Shown here piece after piece: positions 2,729 through 24,375 of a stretch of DNA of 24,375 bases. The stretch's first letter is position 1. Every line of letters begins with the position of its first letter. The notes under the pieces are model-generated. The model was not told where the DNA came from and searched no databases. It saw only the letters and a program-made list of their open reading frames with translations. The translations under genes were made by a program, and so were the position numbers. Source of the DNA: a virus; the IMG/VR virus record IMGVR_UViG_3300031999_003367, positions 1 through 24,375 of that record; one strand, given 5' to 3'.

Positions 2729-3229
2729 ATGAGTACCGTAAACGTCAAGGTCGAGGGCATCGAGAAGACACTGGCGAGCCTCAAGAAGTGGCAGATCATC
2801 AAGCGCCAGGCTTGCGAGGATACGCTGAAGAAGATCGGGTTCAAGGTCGAGGCCGATGCCAAGCGCGGGACGCCGGTATGGACGGGACGGCTTCGGAACT
2901 CCATGTCAACAAACTGGTCGGGGTCCGGGATGACGAAGGGCAAGGTAAGCGGGACAGCCAAGGCCGACGATGGTGTCGGCGAGCCGCAAGGCCCGAAGGG
3001 ACTGGTCGTCGTCGTCGGGACGAACGTCCTTTACGCACACATGCAGGAGTTTGGCTCGTGGGGCGAGGGTCCGAAACCCGGGCCGGGCGAGAAGATTCCG
3101 ACAAGGGAGCATGAACCTTGGCCCCGTCCTCAAGGCGGATTCCAGATGCTTACAAAAGCCTATCTCCAGCACGAAGGCGAAGTCAGCACGGAGATCGGCA
3201 AGATCATGGGAAAGGATGAAAAGGTTTGA
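2729..3229 (+). CDS. Tail completion / minor tail protein (HK97 gp10-like)
   Basis: HK97 gp10-like proteins take part in finishing and joining the tail to the head. The 166-residue product shows the family pattern: an N-terminal strand and long helix (MSTVNVKVEGIEKTLASLKK), a second helix with KIGFKVEADAKRGTPVWTGR, in which the 'A-x-x-x-[T/A]-P-x-x-T-G-x-L-[R/K]' signature is clear, then LVVVVGTNVLYAHMQEFGSW, matching the usual '[V/I]-G-x-x-x-x-Y-A-x-x-x-E-F-G' motif. The C-terminus carries PWPRPQGG and a final helix. In most genomes the next gene would be the tail terminator; here the stop overlaps a TTG start of an aminotransferase by four bases, and the sugar block follows. Confidence 0.88.
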   Translation: MSTVNVKVEGIEKTLASLKKWQIIKRQACEDTLKKIGFKVEADAKRGTPVWTGRLRNSMSTNWSGSGMTKGKVSGTAKADDGVGEPQGPKGLVVVVGTNVLYAHMQEFGSWGEGPKPGPGEKIPTREHEPWPRPQGGFQMLTKAYLQHEGEVSTEIGKIMGKDEKV

Positions 3230-4338
3230 TAAGTTTATTCAAGGTCCACATGCCGTTAAGCATAGACGGCCCGCTCCTCGACGTTCTCCACTCGGGTTTC
3301 ATAGGCCAGGGGAAAAAGGTTGACGAGTTCGAGAAACTTATTGGAGCGTTCATTGGTAATGAACACGTCCTTACCATGAACAGCGGCACGTCGGCATTAC
3401 AGTTGGCCCTGAAGTTGGCCGACGTAGGCCATGGCGATGAGGTCGTAACGACGCCCATGACATGCTCGGCAACGTGTATGCCGATCCTGATGGCGGGGGC
3501 TAAGATCGTTTGGGCCGACATCGATCCCTGGACGGCTTGCATCGATCCGGAAAGCGTCAGGAAAAAGTTTACGGCTAAGACCAAAGCCGTCATTTGCGTA
3601 GACTGGGGCGGCTATCCTTGCGACCTTTCCGAACTGATGACGTTATGCCACGAGCATGGCGTCAAACTCATTGAGGATGCCGCACACGCTTTCGGAGCTA
3701 GGTATCAAGAAAAGCGCGTCGGACAAATTTCGGACTTCACGGCATTTTCCTTTCAGGCCATAAAACAATTTACGACAATCGATGGAGGCGCATGCGCGTG
3801 CGCGGACGCGGGCGCGTATAAGCGCGGCAAGCTCCTCCGCTGGTATGGCATCGACCGCGAGCAGAAACGAGGCGACTTCCGATGTGAAGCCGACATCGTT
3901 GAGGCTGGAACAAAGTGGCACATGAATGACGTGGCCGCAACCATCGGCATCGAGCAGATGAAATATTTGCCGTCGATTCTGAGCCAGCATCAAGACAATG
4001 CACTTTATTATGACGATGAGTTGAAAAGGGCGGGCATCCAAACCGTCCAGCCCTTGCGATATAAATACGATCGTTTCTCCGCTCATTGGCTTTACACCGT
4101 CCGTGCCCTTAGCCGGGACCGCTTCGTAAAATGGATGAATGACAACGGCATCCAGACGAGCCGCGTCCACCAACGGAATGATATCCATACCTACGCTAGG
4201 GAATTCAAGACCGACCTCCCCGGCGTCGATGAATTCAACGCTCACCAGTGCTCTATCCCGGTCGGATGGTGGCTTACGTTTGACGACAAGGCTTACATTC
4301 TAAACAAGATAAAGGAATGGGAGAATGTTTGCCTCTGA
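3226..4338 (+). CDS. DegT/DnrJ/EryC1/StrS-family PLP-dependent sugar aminotransferase
   Basis: These fold-type I PLP enzymes move an amino group from glutamate to a keto sugar bound to a nucleotide, giving a 3- or 4-amino sugar. Visible hallmarks are the N-terminal FIGQGKKVDEFEKLIGAF, the phosphate-contacting TMNSGTSALQLAL (Ser53-Leu60), VKLIEDAAHAFGA with the PLP-ring aspartate at 151, and SFQAIKQFTTIDGGAC with the Schiff-base lysine at 180. The usual T-T-G-E-G-G is T-T-I-D-G-G here. At 370 residues it has normal family length. The start is a TTG overlapping the gp10-like stop; the next ATG, at 3250, would cut off the conserved LFKVHMP strand, so I prefer TTG. The matching 4,6-dehydratase is not in the window, so the keto sugar must come from the host or from genes elsewhere. 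Confidence 0.92.
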   Translation: MISLFKVHMPLSIDGPLLDVLHSGFIGQGKKVDEFEKLIGAFIGNEHVLTMNSGTSALQLALKLADVGHGDEVVTTPMTCSATCMPILMAGAKIVWADIDPWTACIDPESVRKKFTAKTKAVICVDWGGYPCDLSELMTLCHEHGVKLIEDAAHAFGARYQEKRVGQISDFTAFSFQAIKQFTTIDGGACACADAGAYKRGKLLRWYGIDREQKRGDFRCEADIVEAGTKWHMNDVAATIGIEQMKYLPSILSQHQDNALYYDDELKRAGIQTVQPLRYKYDRFSAHWLYTVRALSRDRFVKWMNDNGIQTSRVHQRNDIHTYAREFKTDLPGVDEFNAHQCSIPVGWWLTFDDKAYILNKIKEWENVCL

Positions 4339-4882
4339 TGGCATTGTCTTTCGACCAGTCGAGTTTGCTGACTTGGAGGCGATTCGCGCCTTGAGAAATG
4401 ACCCATCAACATGGAGCCAGCTGACATCGATAGGACATATCTCAGCCGAAGCTCAGCAGGTATGGTTCTCGCGTTTGGATGGTGATCCTTCGCGGGCATA
4501 CTTCGCCGTCTTCACCGAAAAGCAGGATGAGCATTATCCCGTCTACTACGAGGGCGACTTCGTCGGTATCATCCGCATGGACGAGATAGACCGGACGAAT
4601 CGTTCCGTCCGCATCGGGGCTGATGTTGTCCCGGCATTGCGCGGCCAGGGCTACGGGACGCGGATTTACAAGGCGCTCCTCAAATACTGCTTCGATTACA
4701 CGGGGATGCATCGCGCCTGGCTCTTGGTTCTCGATACCAATGAGGTCGGCAAGAAGCTCTACTTCAACGTCGGGTTCAAACTCGAAGGGAAACACCGCGA
4801 GGCCATCTTCCGCAATGGGCGATTCGTGGATTACTTGGCCATGAGTATCCTTGAGAACGAATACCGAGAAAGGGTTGCATGA
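4325..4882 (+). CDS. GNAT-family N-acetyltransferase (RimJ/RimL-like), probably amino-sugar acetylating
   Basis: GNAT enzymes transfer an acetyl group from acetyl-CoA to an amine. The 185-residue protein has the expected order: VFRPVEFADLEAIRALRNDP at the N-terminus, the central strand YYEGDFVGIIRMDEIDRTNR, the acetyl-CoA pyrophosphate loop ALRGQGYGT (Arg106 to Thr112, the R-G-x-G-x-G/A type), and the late LLVLDTNEVGKKLYFNVGFK, a typical 'N-x-x-[A/G]-x-x-[L]-Y-x-x-x-G-F' ending. The gene overlaps the aminotransferase by 14 bases. In O-antigen and pseudaminic-acid pathways an aminotransferase next to a GNAT (for example PseC and PseH) makes an N-acetylated amino sugar; the same logic is inferred here. 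Protein N-terminal acetylation is an alternative, but the neighbours argue for sugars. Confidence 0.87.
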   Translation: MFASDGIVFRPVEFADLEAIRALRNDPSTWSQLTSIGHISAEAQQVWFSRLDGDPSRAYFAVFTEKQDEHYPVYYEGDFVGIIRMDEIDRTNRSVRIGADVVPALRGQGYGTRIYKALLKYCFDYTGMHRAWLLVLDTNEVGKKLYFNVGFKLEGKHREAIFRNGRFVDYLAMSILENEYRERVA

Positions 4883-5727
4883 TAGACATCCTTATTCCAA
4901 ACCGCTTTACCTGGAACTCAATTTGCCTGACGATTGAATCTATCATAAAGCGTACGTCGCCGGAGACTGGATATAAGATTATTGTTTGCGATAACAGTGC
5001 CGTCACGAGCCTGTCGGGGATGAACTGGGCACGTGATCCTCAACCCGTCTCAAGCACAGGCGATGACGGCAGTCGGCGTGAATATCTGCGGGCGATGGCC
5101 AGGATGGGGCATATCCAACTCATCGAAAAGACGGACCCCGGCACGCACTATGGACACGGCGAAAACTTGACCCTGCTATGTGCGGCATCGACGGCGGACT
5201 ATGCGCTCCTCCTCAATTCCAATTCCGAGGTCATTCGGGCCGATTGGCTGGATGTACTCGTGGACTTGATAAAAGACCCGGAGCATGATTTAGGCGTGGC
5301 CCGAGAACGTAATGGCGGCAATCACTGGGACTTATGTTGGATAACGCCGACCTACTGGCCGAATATCATGTTCTTGAACATGCCGCTTTATCGGCGGCAT
5401 TTCGCAGATCATAAATGGGAACTTCGGCAGATCGGGTTCGAGGAGTTCGAGCGGCCGGAGATATTCGCCGGGCAGACACCCCCACGCACGCCCGAGCGCA
5501 CGCCCCCGCTCGTGTTCGCGGATACGGGATGGTCACTCTGGGAGCGGTTGCACTTTGAGAATCCTACCGGACTCAGAATGATACCGCTTTCCGATAATTA
5601 CTGGAACACGCACATAATATGGAGGGGCGGGATAGATCGTAATAGTCATCGCCCCGATCACGAGCACGTCCGCAAGACGCTGGCCGAGACCGATCAGCGA
5701 CTGGCAGCATTGCGGGCCGAAGGATAA
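4879..5727 (+). CDS. GT2-type glycosyltransferase with an altered DXD motif
   Basis: This 282-residue protein overlaps the GNAT gene as ATGA. It starts like the other GT-A fold enzymes of the block: MIDILIPNRFTWNSICLTIE, followed by GYKIIVCDNS with the nucleotide-contacting Asp38. At the place of the metal-binding D-x-D it has LLLNSNSEV (Asn113-Ser114-Asn115), where its neighbours have DGD, DCD, DND or DID. Some GT2 rhamnosyltransferases tolerate N-x-D, but loss of both acids is unusual. A loop at about residues 199-212 is proline-rich (QTPPRTPERTPPL). The C-terminal half keeps the aromatic features of the others (FLNMPLYRR; WSLWERLHFENPTG). It may be a metal-independent transferase, have a different donor, or be an inactive partner of another enzyme. 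Confidence 0.82.
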   Translation: MIDILIPNRFTWNSICLTIESIIKRTSPETGYKIIVCDNSAVTSLSGMNWARDPQPVSSTGDDGSRREYLRAMARMGHIQLIEKTDPGTHYGHGENLTLLCAASTADYALLLNSNSEVIRADWLDVLVDLIKDPEHDLGVARERNGGNHWDLCWITPTYWPNIMFLNMPLYRRHFADHKWELRQIGFEEFERPEIFAGQTPPRTPERTPPLVFADTGWSLWERLHFENPTGLRMIPLSDNYWNTHIIWRGGIDRNSHRPDHEHVRKTLAETDQRLAALRAEG

Positions 5728-5730
5728 AAC

Positions 5731-6285
5731 ATGCACCCTGCGAATATGGAAGATAAGATCGGCGGCGTCCTGGATTATTCGTCCTTTAATTTGCCGATGC
5801 AGGGACGCCAGGAATGGTATTCATACATGGATCTCATCCGTGCCTATTTTAAGCGGCACGAAATTGAACATCCCGTCGTTGTCGAGATCGGCGTCTGGGC
5901 GAATTGGCAACGGCCATTTTATAAATACTATCTGGACGCTGAGCATATCGGCATCGACATATCATGCGAACAGAGCATGCCGGACATCCTGGGTGATAGC
6001 CATGCACCGGAAACACTGGCCAAACTCAAGGTTCTGCTCAAGGGGCGGACGATTAATCTGCTATTTATCGACGGGGCGCATGATTATGAATCCGTCCGTA
6101 AGGATTATGAGATTTATGCACCGCTTACGAAGGGCATCGTCGCGTTCCATGATGTCGCGTGGCCGGCTGGACCACGGCAACTTTGGAGGGAATTGATTGA
6201 TACCGCAAACGGAATGAAAACCTTCACGTTCATCGACGAACGAAATAAGACGCGGACCGGAATCGGAATCATTGCCGACCCCTAA
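5731..6285 (+). CDS. Class I SAM-methyltransferase-like protein (Methyltransf_24/CmcI-like), copy 1
   Basis: The 184-residue protein has a Rossmann-like order: VVVEIGVWAN (residues 50-58, motif I region), EHIGIDIS with the acidic Asp76 expected to contact the SAM ribose, PDILGDSHAPETLAKLK, NLLFIDGAHDYESVRKDYEI (109-128) and GIVAFHDV. The last three elements match the Methyltransf_24/cephalosporin-hydroxylase-like group, whose members include sugar O-methyltransferases. Motif I lacks the usual second glycine (E-I-G-V-W-A-N), so cofactor binding may be weak or changed. It is a close paralogue of the next gene: from IEHPVVVEIG on they share most motifs. It starts three bases after the preceding stop. 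Likely role: methylation of a hydroxyl on the glycan made by this block, by inference. Confidence 0.8.
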   Translation: MHPANMEDKIGGVLDYSSFNLPMQGRQEWYSYMDLIRAYFKRHEIEHPVVVEIGVWANWQRPFYKYYLDAEHIGIDISCEQSMPDILGDSHAPETLAKLKVLLKGRTINLLFIDGAHDYESVRKDYEIYAPLTKGIVAFHDVAWPAGPRQLWRELIDTANGMKTFTFIDERNKTRTGIGIIADP

Positions 6286-6326: not shown

Positions 6327-6878
6327 ATGAACTTCGCACTTTTCAACACCCTGTTGCCGCCCTGCCAGAATGTCCATGAATGGCGATGGTTCCTTTGTTT
6401 CTGTGAGTCGTATTTCAATGCCCGGGGGATTGAACATCCCGTGGTCGTTGAGATCGGCCTGGATAAGAATGCCCAGAAAGCATTCTATGAAAACCTGCTT
6501 GGCGCAACCCATATCGGGATAGACAATAATCCCGAAGTGCCGGGAACTGATATTCTCGGTGACAGTCATGATCCCGCGACGGTAGAACGATTAAAGGAAA
6601 GGTTGGCCGGAAAAGCAATCGACTTACTCTACATTGATGGCGACCATGCTTATGAAAGCGTGAAACGCGATTACCAATTATTCTCGCCACTTGCACCCCG
6701 GCTTATTGCATTCCACGACGTTGTCGTCCTCGGTTCGGTCATGAAGTTATGGGAAGAACTGATTGCCGATCAAGGAAAGAACGGAGACCGACTTTTCATG
6801 TTGTTCCACAATCATCATATCGGTTGGATACGTGGCAAAGAACCCTTCGGTATCGGGCTAATGGTTTGTGACCCATGA
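6327..6878 (+). CDS. Class I SAM-methyltransferase-like protein (Methyltransf_24/CmcI-like), copy 2
   Basis: This 183-residue paralogue of the preceding gene shares IEHPVVVEIG, THIGID, DILGDSHDPATVERLK, DLLYIDGDHAYESVKRDY and LIAFHDVVV. A 30-base stretch at 6429-6458 matches 5863-5892 at 27 positions, with only third-base changes, so the pair arose by tandem duplication. The N-terminal 35 residues and the C-terminus differ, suggesting divergence in substrate. As in copy 1, motif I is degenerate (E-I-G-L-D-K-N). An Asp or Asn follows the second strand (GIDNN). It overlaps the next GT2 gene as ATGA. A methyltransferase role on sugar hydroxyls is inferred; a non-catalytic role cannot be excluded. 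Confidence 0.8.
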   Translation: MNFALFNTLLPPCQNVHEWRWFLCFCESYFNARGIEHPVVVEIGLDKNAQKAFYENLLGATHIGIDNNPEVPGTDILGDSHDPATVERLKERLAGKAIDLLYIDGDHAYESVKRDYQLFSPLAPRLIAFHDVVVLGSVMKLWEELIADQGKNGDRLFMLFHNHHIGWIRGKEPFGIGLMVCDP

Positions 6879-7654
6879 AGTCAGTCGAAATCCTAATACC
6901 AAATTATAATGTTGGTCCGGTTATCGAACTGAACATTGAAAGTATCCGCGCCCGAACAAATTATCCGAATTATTCCATTATCGTTCACGACGATTCGACG
7001 GAGGGGACGGACAGAGTGTATCTGGAAAAGATCGAAGCGAAGGGTTGGATAAGACTCATCCGGTCCACAACCCGCGAGAGGTGGGAAAAGGATAAGGAAA
7101 ATTTCATACCTAGCCATCCTGCCCCGTATTGGCATGGTTGTGCGCTGAACGTGTTGATTAACGAAGCCTGCGGGGCCGACCTAGTCATGATCCTGGACGG
7201 TGATGTTTATATCAAGGACCCATCCTGGCTCCGAAGAATGGTTGACTTCATGGGCGACAAAATTCTAGTTGCCGCGCATTGGCGTCCACCGTCATGCTTT
7301 CCTTCCGGCGCTTGCGTTCCGGGCTGGTGGATGCCGCATTTCTGTATGCTGAATATGGCCGCCTATCGTGACGGCATGGCCGTCGATTGGCGCGGCGGAT
7401 CGGCACTAATGGATAGCGAACCATATAAAACGATACTTGCTCCCCTGGCCGCTCGGATCGTTTGTTTCGACCCCGGTTCCTCGTTATGGATAAAAATGCA
7501 GACCAGCAATCCTAGGCACTACCGGGGATGCATCATTCCCGACGACATGCAGAAATATTATCACCACTTCTCGCACGGTTCGTTAAGGTCACTTGGGGAA
7601 GAAGAAAACAAATTAGTCATGTCTACACTTACCACGCTACGAAAGGCGATATGA
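6875..7654 (+). CDS. GT2-family glycosyltransferase
   Basis: This GT-A fold transferase of 259 residues would move a sugar from a nucleotide donor to an acceptor, probably in the cytoplasm since no membrane segment is seen. The N-terminus has MKSVEILIPNYNVGPVIELN with the first strand and UDP-contacting loop, then YSIIVHDDST (Asp39-Asp40), a helix EKIEAKGWIRLI, and the metal-binding LVMILDGDVYI (Asp108-Gly-Asp110). A tryptophan- and cysteine-rich middle (CVPGWWMPHFCMLNMAAYRD) precedes GSSLWIKMQTSNP, a block that recurs in the GT2 at 8987 (GCVLWCKMRHENP), showing close paralogy. The gene overlaps both neighbours by four bases. Confidence 0.9.
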   Translation: MKSVEILIPNYNVGPVIELNIESIRARTNYPNYSIIVHDDSTEGTDRVYLEKIEAKGWIRLIRSTTRERWEKDKENFIPSHPAPYWHGCALNVLINEACGADLVMILDGDVYIKDPSWLRRMVDFMGDKILVAAHWRPPSCFPSGACVPGWWMPHFCMLNMAAYRDGMAVDWRGGSALMDSEPYKTILAPLAARIVCFDPGSSLWIKMQTSNPRHYRGCIIPDDMQKYYHHFSHGSLRSLGEEENKLVMSTLTTLRKAI

Positions 7655-8388
7655 AAACCGTTTCCATCTGTATCACGAATTATCAGTCAGGAGACACCAT
7701 AGCCCTGTGCATAGAGAGCATCCGCAAATTCACATCGTATCCGCATGATATCATGGTCTATGACGATGCCTCGGATCCCGTACATTACGGCGACGACATT
7801 ACGTACCTCCGGGCTGCCCAAGAGAAAGGGTGGATCAAGTTCATCGAAGGCAACCCGCACGGCGGATGGGGGTGCGGCATCCGGACGATGCTTAATGCCG
7901 TGACAACCGACCTTGCCATGATCTTGGATTGCGATATCCAGATCCTTCGCGCCGGATGGCTAGAGAAGATAATTGCTCATCAAGAGGTAACGGGCGCAGC
8001 GATGATCACCGATATGGAGGTATTCCCCGATAACGTGTCTATCGCCTCATGGTTTTTTATGCTAGATATGGCGCAGTACCCGTTCATTAAACCCGCCGAA
8101 TGGGACTACACGACGAAGCCGGACTTTATCAACTGGGACGAAACGCCGATGGCATTATATCCTGCCGGTCATCAGGTGTATGCGAATATTCTCGCACAGG
8201 GGCGCATCCTGGCCCCGTTCCCGCCGGGTATCTCCGCAAAGCCGACGGGTCCGGGCGCTTATTACAATCACCCGGCACACATCTCCGTTCTTTCCATGCC
8301 GATGAGCGGTCCGAACTTTAATGTCAGGAAGCAGAAATACAAAGCAGTCCAAGAGGAGTTGATTAAATTGCGGAAGGGAACCTCATAA
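7651..8388 (+). CDS. GT2-family glycosyltransferase
   Basis: I place the start at the ATG at 7651, which overlaps the previous stop as ATGA and gives MKTVSICITNYQSGDTIALC, the standard GT2 opening. The frame stays open upstream to 7528 but only as a shadow of the preceding gene. The 245-residue product has YPHDIMVYDDAS (Asp38-Asp39), a run HGGWGCGIRTMLNAVTTDLA typical of the helix before the donor site, and MILDCDIQILRAGWL with the D-x-D at Asp93-Cys-Asp95. The same D-x-D-I-Q-I-L-R string occurs in the GT2 at 8987, so these two are particularly close. No membrane segment. Donor and acceptor are unknown. Confidence 0.9.
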   Translation: MKTVSICITNYQSGDTIALCIESIRKFTSYPHDIMVYDDASDPVHYGDDITYLRAAQEKGWIKFIEGNPHGGWGCGIRTMLNAVTTDLAMILDCDIQILRAGWLEKIIAHQEVTGAAMITDMEVFPDNVSIASWFFMLDMAQYPFIKPAEWDYTTKPDFINWDETPMALYPAGHQVYANILAQGRILAPFPPGISAKPTGPGAYYNHPAHISVLSMPMSGPNFNVRKQKYKAVQEELIKLRKGTS

Positions 8389-8990
8389 TGCATCCCCTAA
8401 ATCGGCACTTCTGGAGGCAGACGAGTCAGCGATATCCGTGCTATTTTAACGACCCAGCCGTTGTGATCGAGTTCGGGGCAGCCAATATCAACGGGTCCAT
8501 CCGCGATTATTTCCATTGTAAAAACTATATCGGTGTCGATTGGCGTCCTGGAAAAGACGTTGATGTTGTCAGCCTGACGCACGAGTTTCAATATCCGGCG
8601 TCATGCTTTAACACGGTCGCCTCGGCCTCGATGTTGGAGCATGACCCATACTGGAAACAGAGTCTCGCCAAAATGGTTGACCTCATGCGGGGCGACGGGA
8701 TGTTGGTGATCTCATGGGGATCGGCCCTTAATAATCCACACGAACTGGCTGTTGCACCCGACGGCCAATTCCACAGTCTCAAGTCCAAGGTGGTATTTGA
8801 TCACCTAGAATCGCTCGGATTATATATTCACCAATTCCTTTATGAGCACTCGGTGTTTCTGGGCCATTCCCCGAAAGTATTGACGGGATGGCAGGCGGGA
8901 TTCGGGGAGGCGACATTGATCGGATTCAAATCGCCGCAATATGCTGAGGGGTTCCGAATCATCGATCCATTCATCGAGGCCGACAAATGA
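8388..8990 (+). CDS. Class I SAM-dependent methyltransferase (Methyltransf_11-like)
   Basis: The 200-residue protein belongs to a different methyltransferase group from the tandem pair. Motif I is AVVIEFGAANINGSIRDYF (residues 24-42) with E-F-G-A-A-N-I-N-G, then YIGVDWRPGKDVDVV with the acidic Asp51 after strand 2. FNTVASASMLEHDPYW fits the 'F-D-x-V-x-[S/C]-x-[S/E]-x-[L]-E-H' motif common in small-molecule and sugar methyltransferases, and GDGMLVISWG follows as strand 5. The C-terminal part is aromatic (FLYEHSVFLGHSP; FGEATLIGFK). Its start overlaps the preceding stop by one base (TAATG) and its end overlaps the next GT2 as ATGA. Likely target: a hydroxyl or carboxyl on the glycan; inferred from neighbours. 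Confidence 0.82.
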   Translation: MHPLNRHFWRQTSQRYPCYFNDPAVVIEFGAANINGSIRDYFHCKNYIGVDWRPGKDVDVVSLTHEFQYPASCFNTVASASMLEHDPYWKQSLAKMVDLMRGDGMLVISWGSALNNPHELAVAPDGQFHSLKSKVVFDHLESLGLYIHQFLYEHSVFLGHSPKVLTGWQAGFGEATLIGFKSPQYAEGFRIIDPFIEADK

Positions 8991-9808
8991 ATCCGACGGA
9001 CATATTAATTCCTAACTACAATGGCCGCGAGGCATTGGAACTCTGCATAGAGTCTATTGCTCGGCATACGCCGGAAGCGCATCGGGTCATCGTCTATGAC
9101 GACGCATCGACGAATCCAGGGGAGCTGGAATATCTGGCAAGGGCGCAGGCACGTGGACATGTCAATGAGGTTATTTTAGGAAATGAGCATGGTGGACATG
9201 GAGTCGCGCTCAACACGCTGGTTAACAGCTCTCTTGCTTCCTATGCCGTCCTAATGGATAACGATATTCAGATACTTCGAAGAGGCTGGTTGTCGGGACT
9301 CATGGGACTGGCCGCAAATCCCCGCGTCTTAGTCGTCAGTACCGAAGGTCCCTCATTCGGATATTGCAGCCGAGGATACCTACCGGGGAGGTTCCATCCC
9401 TGGTTCGAACTCCTGAACATGGGTGCTTATCGGGATGGGATGACGGTCGATTGGTCACTCGCCGAGGCGCAACGGGAGGATGAACCTTGGCGGACGGAAT
9501 GTGCACATCTATATCCGCCTGACAATAATCCCATTTTTAGGCGTACACAAGCTACCTGGGGAAAATGCAAGGATGACTTTAATCCCGAAAAGATTATCTT
9601 CGATCCCGGTTGCGTCCTTTGGTGCAAGATGCGACACGAGAATCCGAAAGGATATATCCATCAGGAACTAACGCCGTACGTTCTGTCATCATTCAGACAT
9701 TGGGGGCATGCCCAAGCGTGGCTCGAACCGCAAAATGCAGAAACGGAAAAGGGCAGGATGCTCCGTGTTCGAGTTGGGGAAGAGCTGGCAAAGCTTCGAT
9801 GTACTTAA
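8987..9808 (+). CDS. GT2-family glycosyltransferase
   Basis: The 273-residue protein begins MNPTDILIPNYNGREALELC, then HRVIVYDDAST (Asp38-Asp39), the helix EYLARAQARGHVNEVILGNE, and GGHGVALNTLVNSSLASYAV before the metal site LMDNDIQILRRGWL (Asp91-Asn-Asp93). The middle (FHPWFELLNMGAYRDGMTVD) is strongly like that of the GT2 at 6875 (NMAAYRDGMAVDW). The end has FDPGCVLWCKMRHENPKGY and an acidic-basic helix. It is a full-length GT-A enzyme and clearly a paralogue of the other GT2 genes in this block, so the cassette seems to have grown by duplication and divergence, which would suit stepwise building of an oligosaccharide. Confidence 0.9.
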   Translation: MNPTDILIPNYNGREALELCIESIARHTPEAHRVIVYDDASTNPGELEYLARAQARGHVNEVILGNEHGGHGVALNTLVNSSLASYAVLMDNDIQILRRGWLSGLMGLAANPRVLVVSTEGPSFGYCSRGYLPGRFHPWFELLNMGAYRDGMTVDWSLAEAQREDEPWRTECAHLYPPDNNPIFRRTQATWGKCKDDFNPEKIIFDPGCVLWCKMRHENPKGYIHQELTPYVLSSFRHWGHAQAWLEPQNAETEKGRMLRVRVGEELAKLRCT

Positions 9809-10551
9809 CCATTGCCGCCGCCAACGTCGATTCTCCGGAATGGGTCGAGCTTCTTGTGAAAAGCGTCCGGAAATTTACGGCCCCGGGAACATACGAAATT
9901 ATCATAGTCGATAACGGGTCACTCGAACGGAACCTCGAATGGCTGAAACGGCAACCCGATATTCGGCTCATCGAGAACAAGGGAAATCTTGGGCATGGGC
10001 GAGCGATGGACCAGGCGGTTGAAGTGGCCATCGGTCAATATATCTGTGTCCTAGATATCGATGCCCATATTCAACGGACGGGATGGGAGAATGACCTCGT
10101 TGCGTTATATTATGCCGATCCGTTGACGCGGCTCATCGGCTGCGTCGGTCCGGCGCACAAACCGCTCCATCCGCCGTTATTTTTCTTCGAACGGGATTTC
10201 ATCCGGAATTATGGTTTGAGGTTTATGTTTCATCCCGACGGCGACCCCAGATCGACGGATACGGCACAACTTGTTTATTGGCAGATACTTGACCTCGGAC
10301 ATAAGGTCCTTCGTCTTGAAAAGGGAATGAAAATTTACCCCGATTGCATTGGAGACGAAATATGGATCGGGGATAAAGCGACCCTATACCATCATTGGTA
10401 TGGGACAAGATTCCGGGAAAACACGGACAAGCCGCAGCTGAACCTGGATGGTTATACACTCCGGGAACACATAGAGAATAAAGCGCGGGTTTTTGCACAA
10501 CCTTTCGTGAGGGAGATATTGGGGAATGACGGAACAGACACCCGGACTTGA
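9799..10551 (+). CDS. GT2-family glycosyltransferase (rhamnosyltransferase-like layout)
   Basis: I choose ATG 9799, 10 bases inside the previous gene, because it yields MYLTIAAANVDSPEWVELLV, a good first strand and helix; the open frame upstream to 9610 is only a shadow of the preceding gene. The 250-residue product has YEIIIVDNGS (Asp38), IRLIENKGNLGHGRAMDQAV, typical of GT2 enzymes ('N-x-G-[N/F]-[L/G]-G-x-[A/G]-x-[A/G]'), and YICVLDIDAHIQ with the D-x-D at Asp86-Ile-Asp88. The C-terminus contains KATLYHHWYGTRFREN, with a His-Trp-Tyr-Gly pattern seen near the base/acceptor region of several GT2 proteins. It overlaps the large four-domain gene by 26 bases. It is less like the other block members, so it may add a different sugar. 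Confidence 0.88.
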   Translation: MYLTIAAANVDSPEWVELLVKSVRKFTAPGTYEIIIVDNGSLERNLEWLKRQPDIRLIENKGNLGHGRAMDQAVEVAIGQYICVLDIDAHIQRTGWENDLVALYYADPLTRLIGCVGPAHKPLHPPLFFFERDFIRNYGLRFMFHPDGDPRSTDTAQLVYWQILDLGHKVLRLEKGMKIYPDCIGDEIWIGDKATLYHHWYGTRFRENTDKPQLNLDGYTLREHIENKARVFAQPFVREILGNDGTDTRT

Positions 10552-13111
10552 CCGAACCGCAATCATCATAACGACGTTTATGCGGGATGCGGTGCTTATG
10601 CGATGCGTCGAAAGCATCAGGAAATTCTATCCGGATATCCCGATCTTCGTGGGCGATAACGGGAATCCGGACGATAAAAAGACGGAATTCCTGAAGGCCG
10701 CCAAGTGCACCCATTTTCAACTTCCGTTTGACCTCGGCGTGAGCGGCGTCCGGAACGAAACGCTTAAGCTCATCCCGCCGGAATACGAATACTTGATGAT
10801 TATCGAAGATGACACGGCATTCACCGACAAGACGCAACTTGAAAAACTCCGGGCGGTCTTAGACGATGAACCAACGGCCGGACTTTGCGGCTGCCTAATG
10901 TTCCTCAAGGATGGCCGCGAGCAGCACTATGAAGGTACGATTTACAGCGAGGGCACAACGCACTTCATAAGGAAAGTTGATTCTCCGGCATGGCGGAAAA
11001 CAGTATCCGGCGTTCAGTTTACCATGAGTTTCGATCTTATCCTCAATATCTTCATGATGCGTCGCCAAGTCTGGATTGATAATCCGTGGGACGAGCAATT
11101 CAAGACGGCACTTGAGCATGAAGATTTTTTCATGGGGCTTCAGCAAAAAGCAAAATGGCGCATTGCCTATACCCGCGATGTATCGTTGCAACACCTGCCG
11201 GAGGGGACAGATGACTATAAAAAATATAGGTGCCGTCCGGTAGGATGGAAACTGTTCGGCGAGAAGTGGGGGTTGAAATACGTCAACAGCGATTATAATC
11301 CGGAATCGCCCCTTTCTTACGAGGCGATGGGCGAAGGGAAGGCGGTCGATCTCAAGGGCGATTGCCTGAAATTCTCCATTGATGTTTTAAACGCCAATCA
11401 ATGCACCTGGTGGTTGGAGGCCGGGACATGCCTCGGGGCAATGCGAGAGCAAGGTTTTATCGCGCATGATTCCGATATTGATATCGGCCTTCATCCGAAA
11501 GAACCGGCACTCTGGGACAAGCTCCAGGCCGACATGATCGCGGCCGGGTTCGAATTCTTGCGGGCGTGGACCCATGGCAAGAAGCGAATGGAGTTGAGTT
11601 TCCGGAAGAACGGCGTCAAGGTCGATCTTTTCTTCTTTTACGACGACGGCGATTTCTGGTGGCACGGCGCGTTCGGGCCGAACAATGATGGCGGATGGGA
11701 CCATGATTGGGAATTCCTTCCACATGTTTTTTCGGCCTATCTTTTCAAAGATTTGAAGCCGGTCATGTTCCATAATCTTCCGTGCTTTCTGCCGAACCCG
11801 CCGGAACGGTATCTCCTGGAACGCTATGGTTCGACCTGGAAACAGCGGCAACGGGGATATCGATTCTGGATGGATTGCCGGGCCCTCGACCGGAACTATT
11901 TCAAGCGGGGCGCGAAAGTCGTTTTCATCGGCGGCGTCTGGGATCTCTTCCACGAGGGACACCTAGCCATCCTGGAGCGAGCCAAGGCGCTCGGGACGAA
12001 ACTTATTGTCGGTATTCTGACCGACAAGGCCGCCTCTGGTTACAAATCTCAACCGGTCATTCCGTTCGAATCCAGGCGGCGAATTATCGAATCCTTGAAG
12101 TGCGTCGATAAAACCATCGTACAGAACGACAGGGATTCGACGGCCGACCTTGTAGCGGCGCGTATCCAGCCGCACTATCTCGTCCACGGCGATGACTGGG
12201 GCCAATGTCCCGGCGAGGCGTATGTCCGGAAGCATGGCGGCAAATTGGTTTATCTGCCTTACACGCAAGGCGTATCGACGACGGAAATCCGGCAGCGGAT
12301 TCTCGATAGCGAAAAGCCGAAGCCAGTTATCCGCGAGAACAAACTTGCCGTCGGCATCAAGACCTTCATGCGCGATGCGGCTTTTTATAAGACCATTGAA
12401 ACCTATCAGGCAACGCTCGGGAAGTCCGACCTGCCTTATCGGTTTTATATAGCCGACGATGGTCCGCAGGACGACGACAAGGCTCTATTCTATACTAAAC
12501 TCAAACAGACCGGCCATATGGTTATTTCTCTTCCTTTCGATGCCGGTGTTTCCTTCGGCAGAAACGCTATTGTCAAACAAGCCAAGGAAGATTACATCCT
12601 AATATCCGACGATGATGTGGTTATCAAGGATGCCGCATCCATCAAAAACATGAAGGCCGTCCTCGATTCGGACGAGAAGATAGGTTTGGTTGCAGCAATG
12701 CTCAAGCACGAAAAGGGCGCGTTCTTCGGCAACGAGAATTATGCCAAGGGGATAAGGCTTGAAAGGCGGGGAAAACTTCTGGCTCGTATACCCGCGCCCC
12801 GTGAAGTTTATGCAACGGCCGACGGCATCAAGTATGTCCTGGCCGATCAGGTTCCGAACATCTTCCTTGCCAAGCGCCAATTATTCAAGGACGTGATGTG
12901 GGACAATCGCATCAAGATCGAGTTTGAGCACATAGACTTCTTCCTGGAGCTCCAGAAAACAGCATGGAAGGCGGCTGTCTGCCTGGATGCCGAGGCGTTC
13001 CATCTTATCACGGATCAGCCAACGGCAGAATATAACCGATATCGCCGAACGGCACCGATGGCATATTTTCTACAAAAGCATGAACTGGGATCGGTGGTCA
13101 ACCAATTTTAG
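10526..13111 (+). CDS. Four-domain fusion: GT2 - LicD/fukutin-type transferase - HxGH cytidylyltransferase - GT2
   Basis: This 861-residue protein is the centrepiece of the block. Residues 11-260 form a GT-A domain: AIIITTFMRDAVLMRCVESI, LPFDLGVSGVRNET, IIEDDTAF (acidic triad 94-96), LEHEDFF (196-202). Residues 275-455 match LicD/fukutin-type enzymes: TWWLEAGTCLGAMREQGFIA then HDSDIDIGL (Asp315, 317, 319) and a second acidic strand KVDLFFFYDD (Asp367). Residues 464-592 are a glycerol-3-phosphate-cytidylyltransferase-like domain: FIGGVWDLFHEGHLAILERA with H476-E-G-H479, YLVHGDDW, and GVSTTEIRQRI. Residues 606-861 are a second GT-A domain like the first: TFMRDA, LPFDAGVSFGRN, ISDDDVVI (695-697), FEHIDFF (800-806). 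The cytidylyltransferase should make a CDP-linked compound (perhaps CDP-glycerol or CDP-ribitol) that the LicD domain could transfer as a phosphodiester to a glycan. Substrates are inferred. Confidence 0.88.
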   Translation: MTEQTPGLDRTAIIITTFMRDAVLMRCVESIRKFYPDIPIFVGDNGNPDDKKTEFLKAAKCTHFQLPFDLGVSGVRNETLKLIPPEYEYLMIIEDDTAFTDKTQLEKLRAVLDDEPTAGLCGCLMFLKDGREQHYEGTIYSEGTTHFIRKVDSPAWRKTVSGVQFTMSFDLILNIFMMRRQVWIDNPWDEQFKTALEHEDFFMGLQQKAKWRIAYTRDVSLQHLPEGTDDYKKYRCRPVGWKLFGEKWGLKYVNSDYNPESPLSYEAMGEGKAVDLKGDCLKFSIDVLNANQCTWWLEAGTCLGAMREQGFIAHDSDIDIGLHPKEPALWDKLQADMIAAGFEFLRAWTHGKKRMELSFRKNGVKVDLFFFYDDGDFWWHGAFGPNNDGGWDHDWEFLPHVFSAYLFKDLKPVMFHNLPCFLPNPPERYLLERYGSTWKQRQRGYRFWMDCRALDRNYFKRGAKVVFIGGVWDLFHEGHLAILERAKALGTKLIVGILTDKAASGYKSQPVIPFESRRRIIESLKCVDKTIVQNDRDSTADLVAARIQPHYLVHGDDWGQCPGEAYVRKHGGKLVYLPYTQGVSTTEIRQRILDSEKPKPVIRENKLAVGIKTFMRDAAFYKTIETYQATLGKSDLPYRFYIADDGPQDDDKALFYTKLKQTGHMVISLPFDAGVSFGRNAIVKQAKEDYILISDDDVVIKDAASIKNMKAVLDSDEKIGLVAAMLKHEKGAFFGNENYAKGIRLERRGKLLARIPAPREVYATADGIKYVLADQVPNIFLAKRQLFKDVMWDNRIKIEFEHIDFFLELQKTAWKAAVCLDAEAFHLITDQPTAEYNRYRRTAPMAYFLQKHELGSVVNQF

Positions 13112-13120
13112 GAGCACATG

Positions 13121-13534
13121 ATGGCAACACGTAAACTCGGATTCCAGCCGTTGATGAAGGCGATTTATACGCGGCTTGGGACCACCGGATATACGATTTA
13201 TAATTATGTTCCCAAGAATGCGGTCATGCCTTACGTATCCTTCGGAGCACCCATCGGAGTGCGGTCAACGTCGTTCACAACACGGGATACCCAGGCTGAG
13301 GATAATTCTGTTACCATCCATGTCTGGAGTGCGAAAGAGGGTGACAAGGAAGCCTCGGAATATATGGATGATATCGTCCAAGCCATCCTTGGGACCGATC
13401 TCGTCGTTAGCGGATATTTCACGCCTTTCATCGCCTTTCTTGATATGTCGGAACTTTTCGTTGACGATTCCATACCGACGCGCCTCGTAAGGCACGGAGT
13501 CCTGCGGTTCCGATTTGTTATGGCCCCGAGTTGA
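13121..13534 (+). CDS. Tail terminator / tail completion protein (DUF3168-like)
   Basis: DUF3168-type proteins (gp17-like tail completion factors) cap the growing tail tube and dock it to the head. The 137-residue product opens with a helix (LGFQPLMKAIYTRLG), then YNYVPKNAVMPYVSFGAPIG, fitting the family's 'V-P-x-x-x-x-x-P-[Y/F]-[V/I]-x-[I/F/L]-G' motif, then NSVTIHVWSAKEGDKEASEY ('[V/I]-x-[V/I]-x-[V/I]-W-[S]' strand and helix), and ends with a beta segment VRHGVLRFRFVMAP. AGGAG at 13110-13114 lies 6 bases before ATG 13121 and only 3 before ATG 13118; I prefer 13121, but 13118 is possible. In most siphoviruses this gene follows the gp10-like gene at once; here the sugar block separates the two. 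Confidence 0.85.
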   Translation: MATRKLGFQPLMKAIYTRLGTTGYTIYNYVPKNAVMPYVSFGAPIGVRSTSFTTRDTQAEDNSVTIHVWSAKEGDKEASEYMDDIVQAILGTDLVVSGYFTPFIAFLDMSELFVDDSIPTRLVRHGVLRFRFVMAPS

Positions 13535-13658: not shown

Positions 13659-14078
13659 ATGACTACTAATGCCGTAAGCGGCAAAAGCATGACGCTCTCC
13701 ATCGAGGGCGATTTCGTTGGCGAAGCTCAGTCTTTCGCACTTCATTTCGCGCAGTCCACGATTGATGTAACATCGAAGGACTCGAATGATTGGGGTGATT
13801 TCCTTGCTGGTCGCAAGGAATGGAGCATTGATTTCAGCGGACTCTATATCTATAACGACTACGCCCAGAGAGCCCTCAAAAACCACTTTCTTGCCTACAC
13901 GTCTTTAGTTCCTATTGCCGTTCCACACCTCCACGTCATTATCACCATGCCTGATGGGCAAACGTTTACGGGCGAAGCCGTCTTAGAATCGATGGACTAT
14001 GAGGGTCCGGCCGAAGAAGCATTGACCATCTCCGGATCACTCAAGGGCAAGGGCGCACTGGTGCCCTCAACAAGCTGA
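13659..14078 (+). CDS. Major tail (tube) protein
   Basis: This protein polymerises into the tail tube through which DNA passes. The 139-residue product has the beta-rich pattern of the TP901-1-like tube family: TNAVSGKSMTLSIEGDFVGE at the N-terminus, then STIDVTSKDSNDWGDFLAGR ('[I/V]-[D/E]-[V/T]-[T/S]-x-x-[D/S]' element), KEWSIDFSGLYIYNDYAQRA, a helix and loop, HVIITMPDGQTFTGEAVLES and a final ALTISGSLKGKGALVP strand. This '[F/W]-x-[V/I]-[D/S]-x-[S/D]-G-L' plus 'G-x-[A/G]-x-[V/L]-x-[S]-[M/L/I]' layout is well known in tube proteins. The gene is short for the family but complete. Its own strong ribosome binding site and the terminator after it fit a product needed in large amount. Confidence 0.85.
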   Translation: MTTNAVSGKSMTLSIEGDFVGEAQSFALHFAQSTIDVTSKDSNDWGDFLAGRKEWSIDFSGLYIYNDYAQRALKNHFLAYTSLVPIAVPHLHVIITMPDGQTFTGEAVLESMDYEGPAEEALTISGSLKGKGALVPSTS

Positions 14079-23765: not shown

Positions 23766-24375
23766 ATGTTTCAGGATGACAGATGCGGTATTGGTTGGGG
23801 CCGTTTTGTCCCGATGTCTCCATTGAACTTCGGCTCATTCGACGGGGTAAAGTTTACCCTGGATGAGACCGGCTTGGGCAAGGAATTCCATGCCGTATCC
23901 AATGCGGGGGCTAATTTCGTCCGCGTTTTTCCGGCGGATGTTTGGGCTAATTATAGGAGCAAGAAAGAAGTGTTCCAACCTTACGTCCTCGATATATCGC
24001 GGAATAAGTGGGACCTGTCGGCATTCAATTCCCAATATTTCCCTATCATGCGCCGGATATTCGAGCTGGCGAATGGGGTCAATATGTCCGTGATGTTTGA
24101 CCTATTTGACAACTGCCAATTCCACGGAACCTACAAGAAATGGTCACCCTGGTGTAACAATGTACAGGGCATCTTGCGGCCCGAGGAAAAAGCCGCCGAT
24201 AAATACACGAAGGTGTGGATCACCAAGTGCCTCGCGGAGTTCAAAAGTTTCGACGTGGTTTGGTCGCTCGGCAACGAGATGGTCTATTCCGGTTTCCCCG
24301 ACTTCGTGGCGCGGGTCGTTTGCCCGTTCATTCGGGCCAAGAAGTTCGCCTTCAAACGGCTGGTCGTCGGAGCAG
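23766..24375 (+). CDS. Glycoside-hydrolase-like TIM-barrel protein (GH5-like), N-terminal part
   Basis: The frame starts at ATG 23766, four bases after an AGGAGGA site at 23756-23762, and continues through the window end, so 203 residues of a larger protein are visible. The sequence has a TIM-barrel rhythm: VSNAGANFVRVFPADVWANY (residues 44-63, strand 2 and its loop), FPIMRRIFELANGVNMSVMF ('helix then strand' with DLFDNC), and VVWSLGNEMVYSGFPDF, in which the W-S-L-G-N-E at 166-171 is the typical acid/base Asn-Glu of clan A glycoside hydrolases such as GH5. The nucleophile Glu would lie beyond the window. Candidate roles are capsular polysaccharide degradation at the tail or cell-wall attack. 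No signal peptide is seen. Confidence 0.75.
   Translation, partial: MFQDDRCGIGWGRFVPMSPLNFGSFDGVKFTLDETGLGKEFHAVSNAGANFVRVFPADVWANYRSKKEVFQPYVLDISRNKWDLSAFNSQYFPIMRRIFELANGVNMSVMFDLFDNCQFHGTYKKWSPWCNNVQGILRPEEKAADKYTKVWITKCLAEFKSFDVVWSLGNEMVYSGFPDFVARVVCPFIRAKKFAFKRLVVGA

Follow-up and report, generated by a model that had tools for sequence, protein, structure and literature searches.

The stretch analyzed here (the window) is 24,375 nucleotides of viral DNA, positions 1 to 24,375 of IMG/VR virus record IMGVR_UViG_3300031999_003367, which is a complete record with head-tail genes on its left and tail genes on its right. Its plus strand carries an open reading frame (ORF) of 861 amino acids with no internal stops, referred to below as the chain, which joins four domains in the order GT-A glycosyltransferase (GT) of the GT2 family, LicD/FKRP-type phosphotransferase, HxGH cytidylyltransferase (CyT), and second GT-A from the N to the C terminus:

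10526-13111, plus strand, ORF of the four-domain chain
10547-11311, plus strand, GT-A domain 1 (GT2; residues 8-262; Pfam PF00535)
11351-11890, plus strand, LicD/FKRP-type phosphotransferase domain (residues 276-455; PF04991)
11465-11491, plus strand, LicD metal-binding motif HDSDIDIGL (residues 314-322)
11912-12307, plus strand, cytidylyltransferase-like domain (residues 463-594; PF01467)
12338-13105, plus strand, GT-A domain 2 (residues 605-860), a duplicate of domain 1 by sequence, with motifs invariant in the family

All motifs named for this ORF in the original prediction, which was made from the DNA alone, are present at their places, and its four domain assignments hold, with three Pfam families scoring above their cut-offs and GT2 matching in two stretches (PF00535, 73.5 bits versus a cut-off of 23.3, residues 13-139 plus a second stretch; CTP_transf_like, PF01467, 64.3 versus 21, residues 468-591; LicD, PF04991, 48.7 versus 22.6, residues 290-323 and beyond). 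GT-A domain 1, which resembles B4GALNT1 in both sequence and fold searches, has EDD at 10805-10813 (residues 94-96), EHED at residues 197-200, and His223, all invariant across the family described below, and GT-A domain 2 has DDD at 12608-12616 (residues 695-697), EHID at residues 801-804, and His826; the acidic metal motif, EHxD, and the late His are retained in both domains of all members. TFMRDA (residues 17-22 and 613-618) and LPFDxGVSxxRN (66-77 and 669-680) occur in both domains, which align at 30% identity over 255 amino acids (E=2e-33) and, judged by these sequences, are duplicates of one another. The CyT domain carries HEGH at 11951-11962 (residues 476-479) with a Lys after it, HGDDW, and GVSTTEIRQRI at 12269-12301 (residues 582-592), including STT, and has PYTQG in place of the RTEG of TagD/TarD. 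In the LicD domain, D315, D317, D319, and D367 are kept in every family relative and align with D360, D362, D364, and D416 of FKRP, which are required for FKRP activity (PMC6965139). The hG[GS] position of the LicD domain reads A-G-T in the window (G300, T301) and has Ser in two relatives, L084 and L085, and this motif is reported to be absent from Mf1-type LicD. The C4 zinc-finger loop of FKRP was not found in the LicD domain, where C302 and C420 are the only near-conserved cysteines. The active sites of all four domains look intact.

An AlphaFold model of the chain (mean predicted local distance difference test score, 87.3) has four folded domains with short linkers between them. The top PDB match of the whole-chain model is human FKRP, a ribitol-5-phosphate transferase (E 9e-17, 483 alignment columns), followed by B4GALNT1 (1e-16), and since 483 columns are too many for LicD alone, the FKRP alignment extends past this domain. 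Because a ppGalNAc-T10-like stem of GT-A fold precedes the LicD-type domain in FKRP (PMC6965139), FKRP shows the same domain order as the N-terminal half of the phage chain. The two proteins share this GT-A-like stem, the LicD/nucleotidyltransferase catalytic domain, and the four catalytic Asp residues, whereas FKRP has the C4 zinc finger, is Golgi-bound, lacks a CyT or second GT, and is only ~15% identical to the chain. To our knowledge, no GT activity is known for the FKRP stem. The animal parallel originally drawn, to the ISPD-fukutin pair, therefore needs correcting: the resemblance is to FKRP itself, whose stem and catalytic domain correspond to GT-A then LicD, rather than to ISPD. ISPD is an IspD-type enzyme, and no IspD domain is among the Pfam matches in the chain, whose CyT is of the HxGH type, like mammalian ethanolamine-phosphate cytidylyltransferase. 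The ISPD-fukutin pair shares with the chain a functional logic, in which a cytidine diphosphate (CDP) donor is made and a phospho-unit is then transferred, but it consists of two proteins, and ISPD is not homologous to the phage CyT.

Scans of viral contigs revealed that at least 29 other IMG/VR contigs (L numbers below are our labels for relatives and comparison loci) encode the chain wholly or partly, at 39-98% identity, and the complete single-ORF chain occurs in at least 16 other contigs, three of which (L005, L006, and L007) may be one phage. Between close members, the ratio of nonsynonymous to synonymous substitution rates (dN/dS) is 0.05-0.15 in every domain, which shows purifying selection on each of them, and the three transferase domains hold their catalytic residues throughout the family. 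A GT2 is fused in front of the chain in L004 (1,116 residues) and L032 (1,112 residues). The L037 chain is ~40-50% identical to that of the window up to the CyT domain and 70-80% identical after it, with a tail terminator at 79%, and this pattern suggests an exchange within the L037 chain near the CyT/GT border.

The statement that no phage protein of this layout had been described was borne out by the literature, 50,697 phage records, and 84,980 species genomes; the same four-domain order, sought in public genomes, was found in viral contigs and not in the species-genome scan. Among the phage records, nothing matched over 80% of the chain, no mycobacteriophage appeared in the listed tallies of matches to it, and a LicD search returned three weak matches only, of which two are Vibrio phage proteins annotated as LicD. 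The scan of the species genomes, which was pattern-based, gave no four-domain chain, and a literature search on the four-domain combination gave no relevant paper. Within reach of these searches, the layout is undescribed in cultured phages, bacterial genomes, or the literature, and joins known enzyme families in a new way at a constant tail-operon site. As for a cellular origin, the genome scan gave a CyT-level match only, in one Marinimicrobia genome, and LicD relatives from Marinimicrobia lie in ORFs of at most 445 amino acids, of which the ten examined were without a CyT or GT of the chain type. No lineage member without the chain was found using a single peptide pattern that is biased to close relatives. 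The best matches of the terminase and capsid are spread over many hosts at <45% identity, and hence no host is claimed. The chain search also matched 184 records of Salinibacter phages, a culturable model, and cultured Salinibacter phage 10_1 (L067) has at 6363-8116 a sulfotransferase-like ORF and a GT2 between a gene resembling that of the major capsid protein and later neck/tail genes; to each of the chain's two GT domains this GT2 bears a distant resemblance (28-32%).

The position of the chain gene is constant. A tail terminator and then a major tail protein lie directly downstream in all 28 contigs with the downstream side present (28/28), and, in all relatives whose contigs extend far enough upstream, a homologue of the window's GT2 ORF starting at 9610 precedes the chain. 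In the window, the ribosome-binding site of the tail terminator (AGGAG) overlaps the stop codon of the chain. The cassette and its borders are as follows:

2729-3229, plus strand, HK97 gp10-like tail component (PF04883), left border of the cassette
3226-4338, plus strand, DegT/PseC-like nucleoside diphosphate-sugar aminotransferase (PF01041, 6e-88; best PDB match 4zwv)
4325-4882, plus strand, GNAT N-acetyltransferase, PseH-like (PseH model below cut-off)
4879-5727, plus strand, GT2-like protein (just under the Pfam cut-off; homologous to the GT2 at 8987)
5731-6285, plus strand, Methyltransf_24 methyltransferase (profile match)
6327-6878, plus strand, Methyltransf_24 methyltransferase (43% identical to that at 5731; tandem pair)
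6875-7654, plus strand, GT2 (Pfam)
7651-8388, plus strand, GT2 (ORF listed from 7528, with the ATG at 7651 the likelier start; 245 amino acids in L007)
8388-8990, plus strand, S-adenosylmethionine-dependent methyltransferase-like protein (phrog_32762, 6e-23)
8987-9808, plus strand, GT2 (Pfam)
9796-10551, plus strand, partner GT2 (ORF 9610-10551, with the ATG at 9796 the likelier start; 26-base overlap with the chain; joined to the chain as a fusion in L004)
13118-13534, plus strand, tail terminator (gp17; PF11367, phrog_176), right border of the cassette
13659-14078, plus strand, major tail protein (phrog_1407, 3e-25), candidate acceptor

The curated (equivalog) PseC and PseH models were not reached (234.4 versus 423.5 bits and 72.0 versus 93.1 bits, respectively). 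No membrane segment was found in any cassette protein, and the guanine-plus-cytosine content is unchanged across the cassette. Cassette size varies among relatives, from small ones with the partner GT2, the chain, and one or two further ORFs (L028 and L030) to others with a long sugar cassette. Individual cassettes hold further genes, such as a DNA methylase-like ORF (N6_N4_Mtase) at 5069-5722 in L007, a close relative of the window, and a weak sulfotransferase match at 9257-9982 in L033, a member with a dead CyT. Two ORFs near the capsid genes of the record containing L032 (contig G006, 29628-32389) have starts that, by eye, resemble GT4-type glycosyltransferases, and an incomplete ORF at the contig end of the window (23766-24374) has a weak Apiosidase-like match (0.016).

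On the CyT domain, the original prediction needs correcting in light of the relatives' sequences. CyT motifs are lost in L033/L022, L030/L048, and L085, and in L084 the domain is absent, with a Pro/Ala-rich linker of ~35 residues in its place, and LicD and both GTs keep their motifs in all of these members. Those with a dead CyT group as a single clade when the CyT columns are left out of the tree (95/97, or 99/99 with fewer rows). A sub-stretch of the degenerate CyT of L085 itself still matches PF01467; the contigs of L033, L022, L030, L048, and L084 yielded no further PF01467 gene, but all of them are fragments, so this negative is weak. Depending on where the tree is rooted, L084 may represent either CyT loss or a pre-CyT state. 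Read from these sequences, CyT is dispensable in the family.

We also asked what the CyT domain activates. Identity with TagD (TIGR01518, 68.7 versus 165.4 bits; PYTQGVSTT rather than RTEGISTT) and with the HldE adenylyltransferase (TIGR02199, 93.5 versus 181.5 bits) was rejected. The domain has the fold, HxGH, and ST[TS]xI signature of the HxGH cytidylyltransferases (Fom1 CyTase, TagD/TarD, and ECT) but differs in having PYTxG where TagD/TarD have RTEG, in being fused to LicD, and in its place outside the TagD clade. In the CyT tree, the phage domains are nearest to CyTs of Bacteroidota capsule loci, one of which adjoins a LicD gene, with modest supports and with Fom1 and ECT on long branches. 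The unit may be an alditol phosphate, as originally proposed, or else phosphoethanolamine/choline or a phosphonate.

Our preferred reading, which we hold by a modest lean, is that the chain assembles glycans as a soluble enzyme with its own donor supply: it would make a CDP donor and incorporate phospho-units into glycans, whose most likely carriers are virion proteins of the tail or capsid. Using cytidine triphosphate (CTP), the CyT domain would activate a small phospho- (or phosphono-) compound to its CDP derivative, the donor from which the LicD domain would transfer the phospho-unit to a sugar or an earlier phospho-unit; the two GT-A domains would add sugars before and/or after it, giving a phosphodiester-containing glycan on one scaffold. 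The variable upstream genes (PseC/PseH-like pair, GTs, and methyltransferases) would make and tailor further sugars, and where CyT is dead or missing, the donor would come from elsewhere, most simply from the host. In the least certain step, the acceptor would belong to the virion (a protein of the tail tube, capsid, or neck), and decoration would take place in the infected cell, either ahead of particle assembly or as it proceeds. The earlier idea that one chain both makes and uses a CDP donor is supported by the sequence, its suggestion that the glycan is extended on both sides is a guess, and the mechanism as a whole appears plausible in outline.

We favor a virion-protein acceptor because of the gene position, the translational coupling to the tail terminator, the lack of membrane or lipid-carrier genes, and a mycobacteriophage precedent. 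Mycobacteriophages glycosylate their capsid and tail-tube proteins (PMC12363180, citing Freeman 2023), and the virion glycosyltransferases of Che8, Corndog, and Myrna are phage enzymes of this kind but are single GTs. A plasmid of Octadecabacter arcticus (L023, 11093-14699) encodes consecutively, in a flagellar gene cluster, a flagellin, a CyT, a 515-amino-acid LicD protein, and an Stf0 sulfotransferase, which by analogy is an independent cellular hint that CyT and LicD can serve protein glycosylation. The main rival, which we consider unlikely, keeps the chemistry but has the cassette remodel host lipopolysaccharide, capsule, or another surface glycan, e.g., for a superinfection block or receptor change. 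O-antigen modification is a common role of phage GT2s (weak matches to phrog_841 here), and bacterial LicD and CyT neighbors sit in capsule loci; on the other hand, the cassette is without a membrane segment or flippase, the chain gene is fixed in the neck/tail operon of every member and coupled to the tail terminator, and it persists across divergent phages of many metagenomes whose accessory genes differ. Several points weigh against a virion-decorating, donor-making chain: capsule loci of Parabacteroides also have LicD and CyT pairs, a place in a structural operon is no proof of a structural acceptor, no curated NCBIfam model identifies the substrate, domain orientation in the AlphaFold model is uncertain (predicted template modeling score, 0.54), and all family members are uncultured viruses known from metagenomic contigs.

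The remaining alternatives concern the CyT domain and the ORF itself. Activation of a phosphonate (2-aminoethyl- or 2-hydroxyethylphosphonate) by the CyT domain, with a phosphonoglycan as the product, strikes us as quite improbable. The Fom1 domain (5x3d; template modeling [TM] score 0.85, 37% identity) is the nearest CyT of solved structure, activates 2-hydroxyethylphosphonate, and has PYTxG[IV]S in common with the phage domain; a relative from Bacteroides finegoldii adjoins a PhnW-like aminotransferase, which scores well below that model's cut-off; and PF01467 domains are often fused to phosphoenolpyruvate (PEP) mutase (PMC6697681). Yet TagD matches the model nearly as well (TM score 0.84), Fom1 joins ECT on a long branch, so its placement is unreliable, and PEP mutase was found on none of 11 family contigs (mostly fragments), which speaks against a phage-made phosphonate. 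We give similarly little weight to a mainly structural CyT, in which the real machine would be GT-LicD-GT fed by a host CDP donor. The loss or absence of CyT in the members named above fits this explanation, as do the degenerate CyT of L030/L048, which is still constrained (dN/dS 0.15), and the kept alpha/beta fold in the L033 model, whereas most members, including the window, keep HxGH, Lys, HGDDW, and S-T/S, and in most lineages the conservation of CyT equals that of the other domains. Finally, the window is a single metagenomic contig, and one could suppose that the ORF is an artefact of assembly, that the gene is decayed, or that the motifs match by chance, but this is refuted by the relatives, with the same ORF found independently in other contigs, low dN/dS, and a confident model, and we give it practically no credence.

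Among other known systems, bacterial LicD transferases of phosphocholine and related units (e.g., Mf1) share with the chain the PF04991 match above cut-off and DxDxD, but are encoded by separate genes in bacteria, and the chain matches the Mf1 model weakly (33.9 versus 225 bits). In the Hib capsule polymerase Bcs3, one multi-enzyme chain likewise holds transferases for a sugar and for ribitol phosphate, but its domains are CriT, CrpP, and CroT, it makes capsule, and the abstract of PMC10299916 describes no on-board donor synthesis. Fold matches included viral LicD proteins of giant viruses (a Dasosvirus LicD/FKTN/FKRP protein and an Indivirus LicD joined to GT92); these are from eukaryotic viruses and lie outside a tail operon, with no CyT-GT arrangement named. 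We know of no phosphate-linked glycans described so far on virus particles of bacteria. We tentatively propose, as a possibility that we consider unlikely, that a single polypeptide with its own donor supply lets phages build an alpha-dystroglycan-like phosphodiester glycan on tail or capsid proteins of their own, and that the GT-A and LicD tandems of the first half of the chain and of FKRP share ancestry, such that the acceptor-binding stem of FKRP derives from a glycosyltransferase.

If the preferred reading is true, the chain would unite donor synthesis and phospho-unit installation in one compact enzyme, of use for making glycans and, being soluble, as a model of FKRP-type chemistry. Natural variants also exist in the lineage, with CyT active, dead, or absent, the partner GT separate or fused, and an apparent in-chain exchange, and they would allow tests of how such machines evolve.

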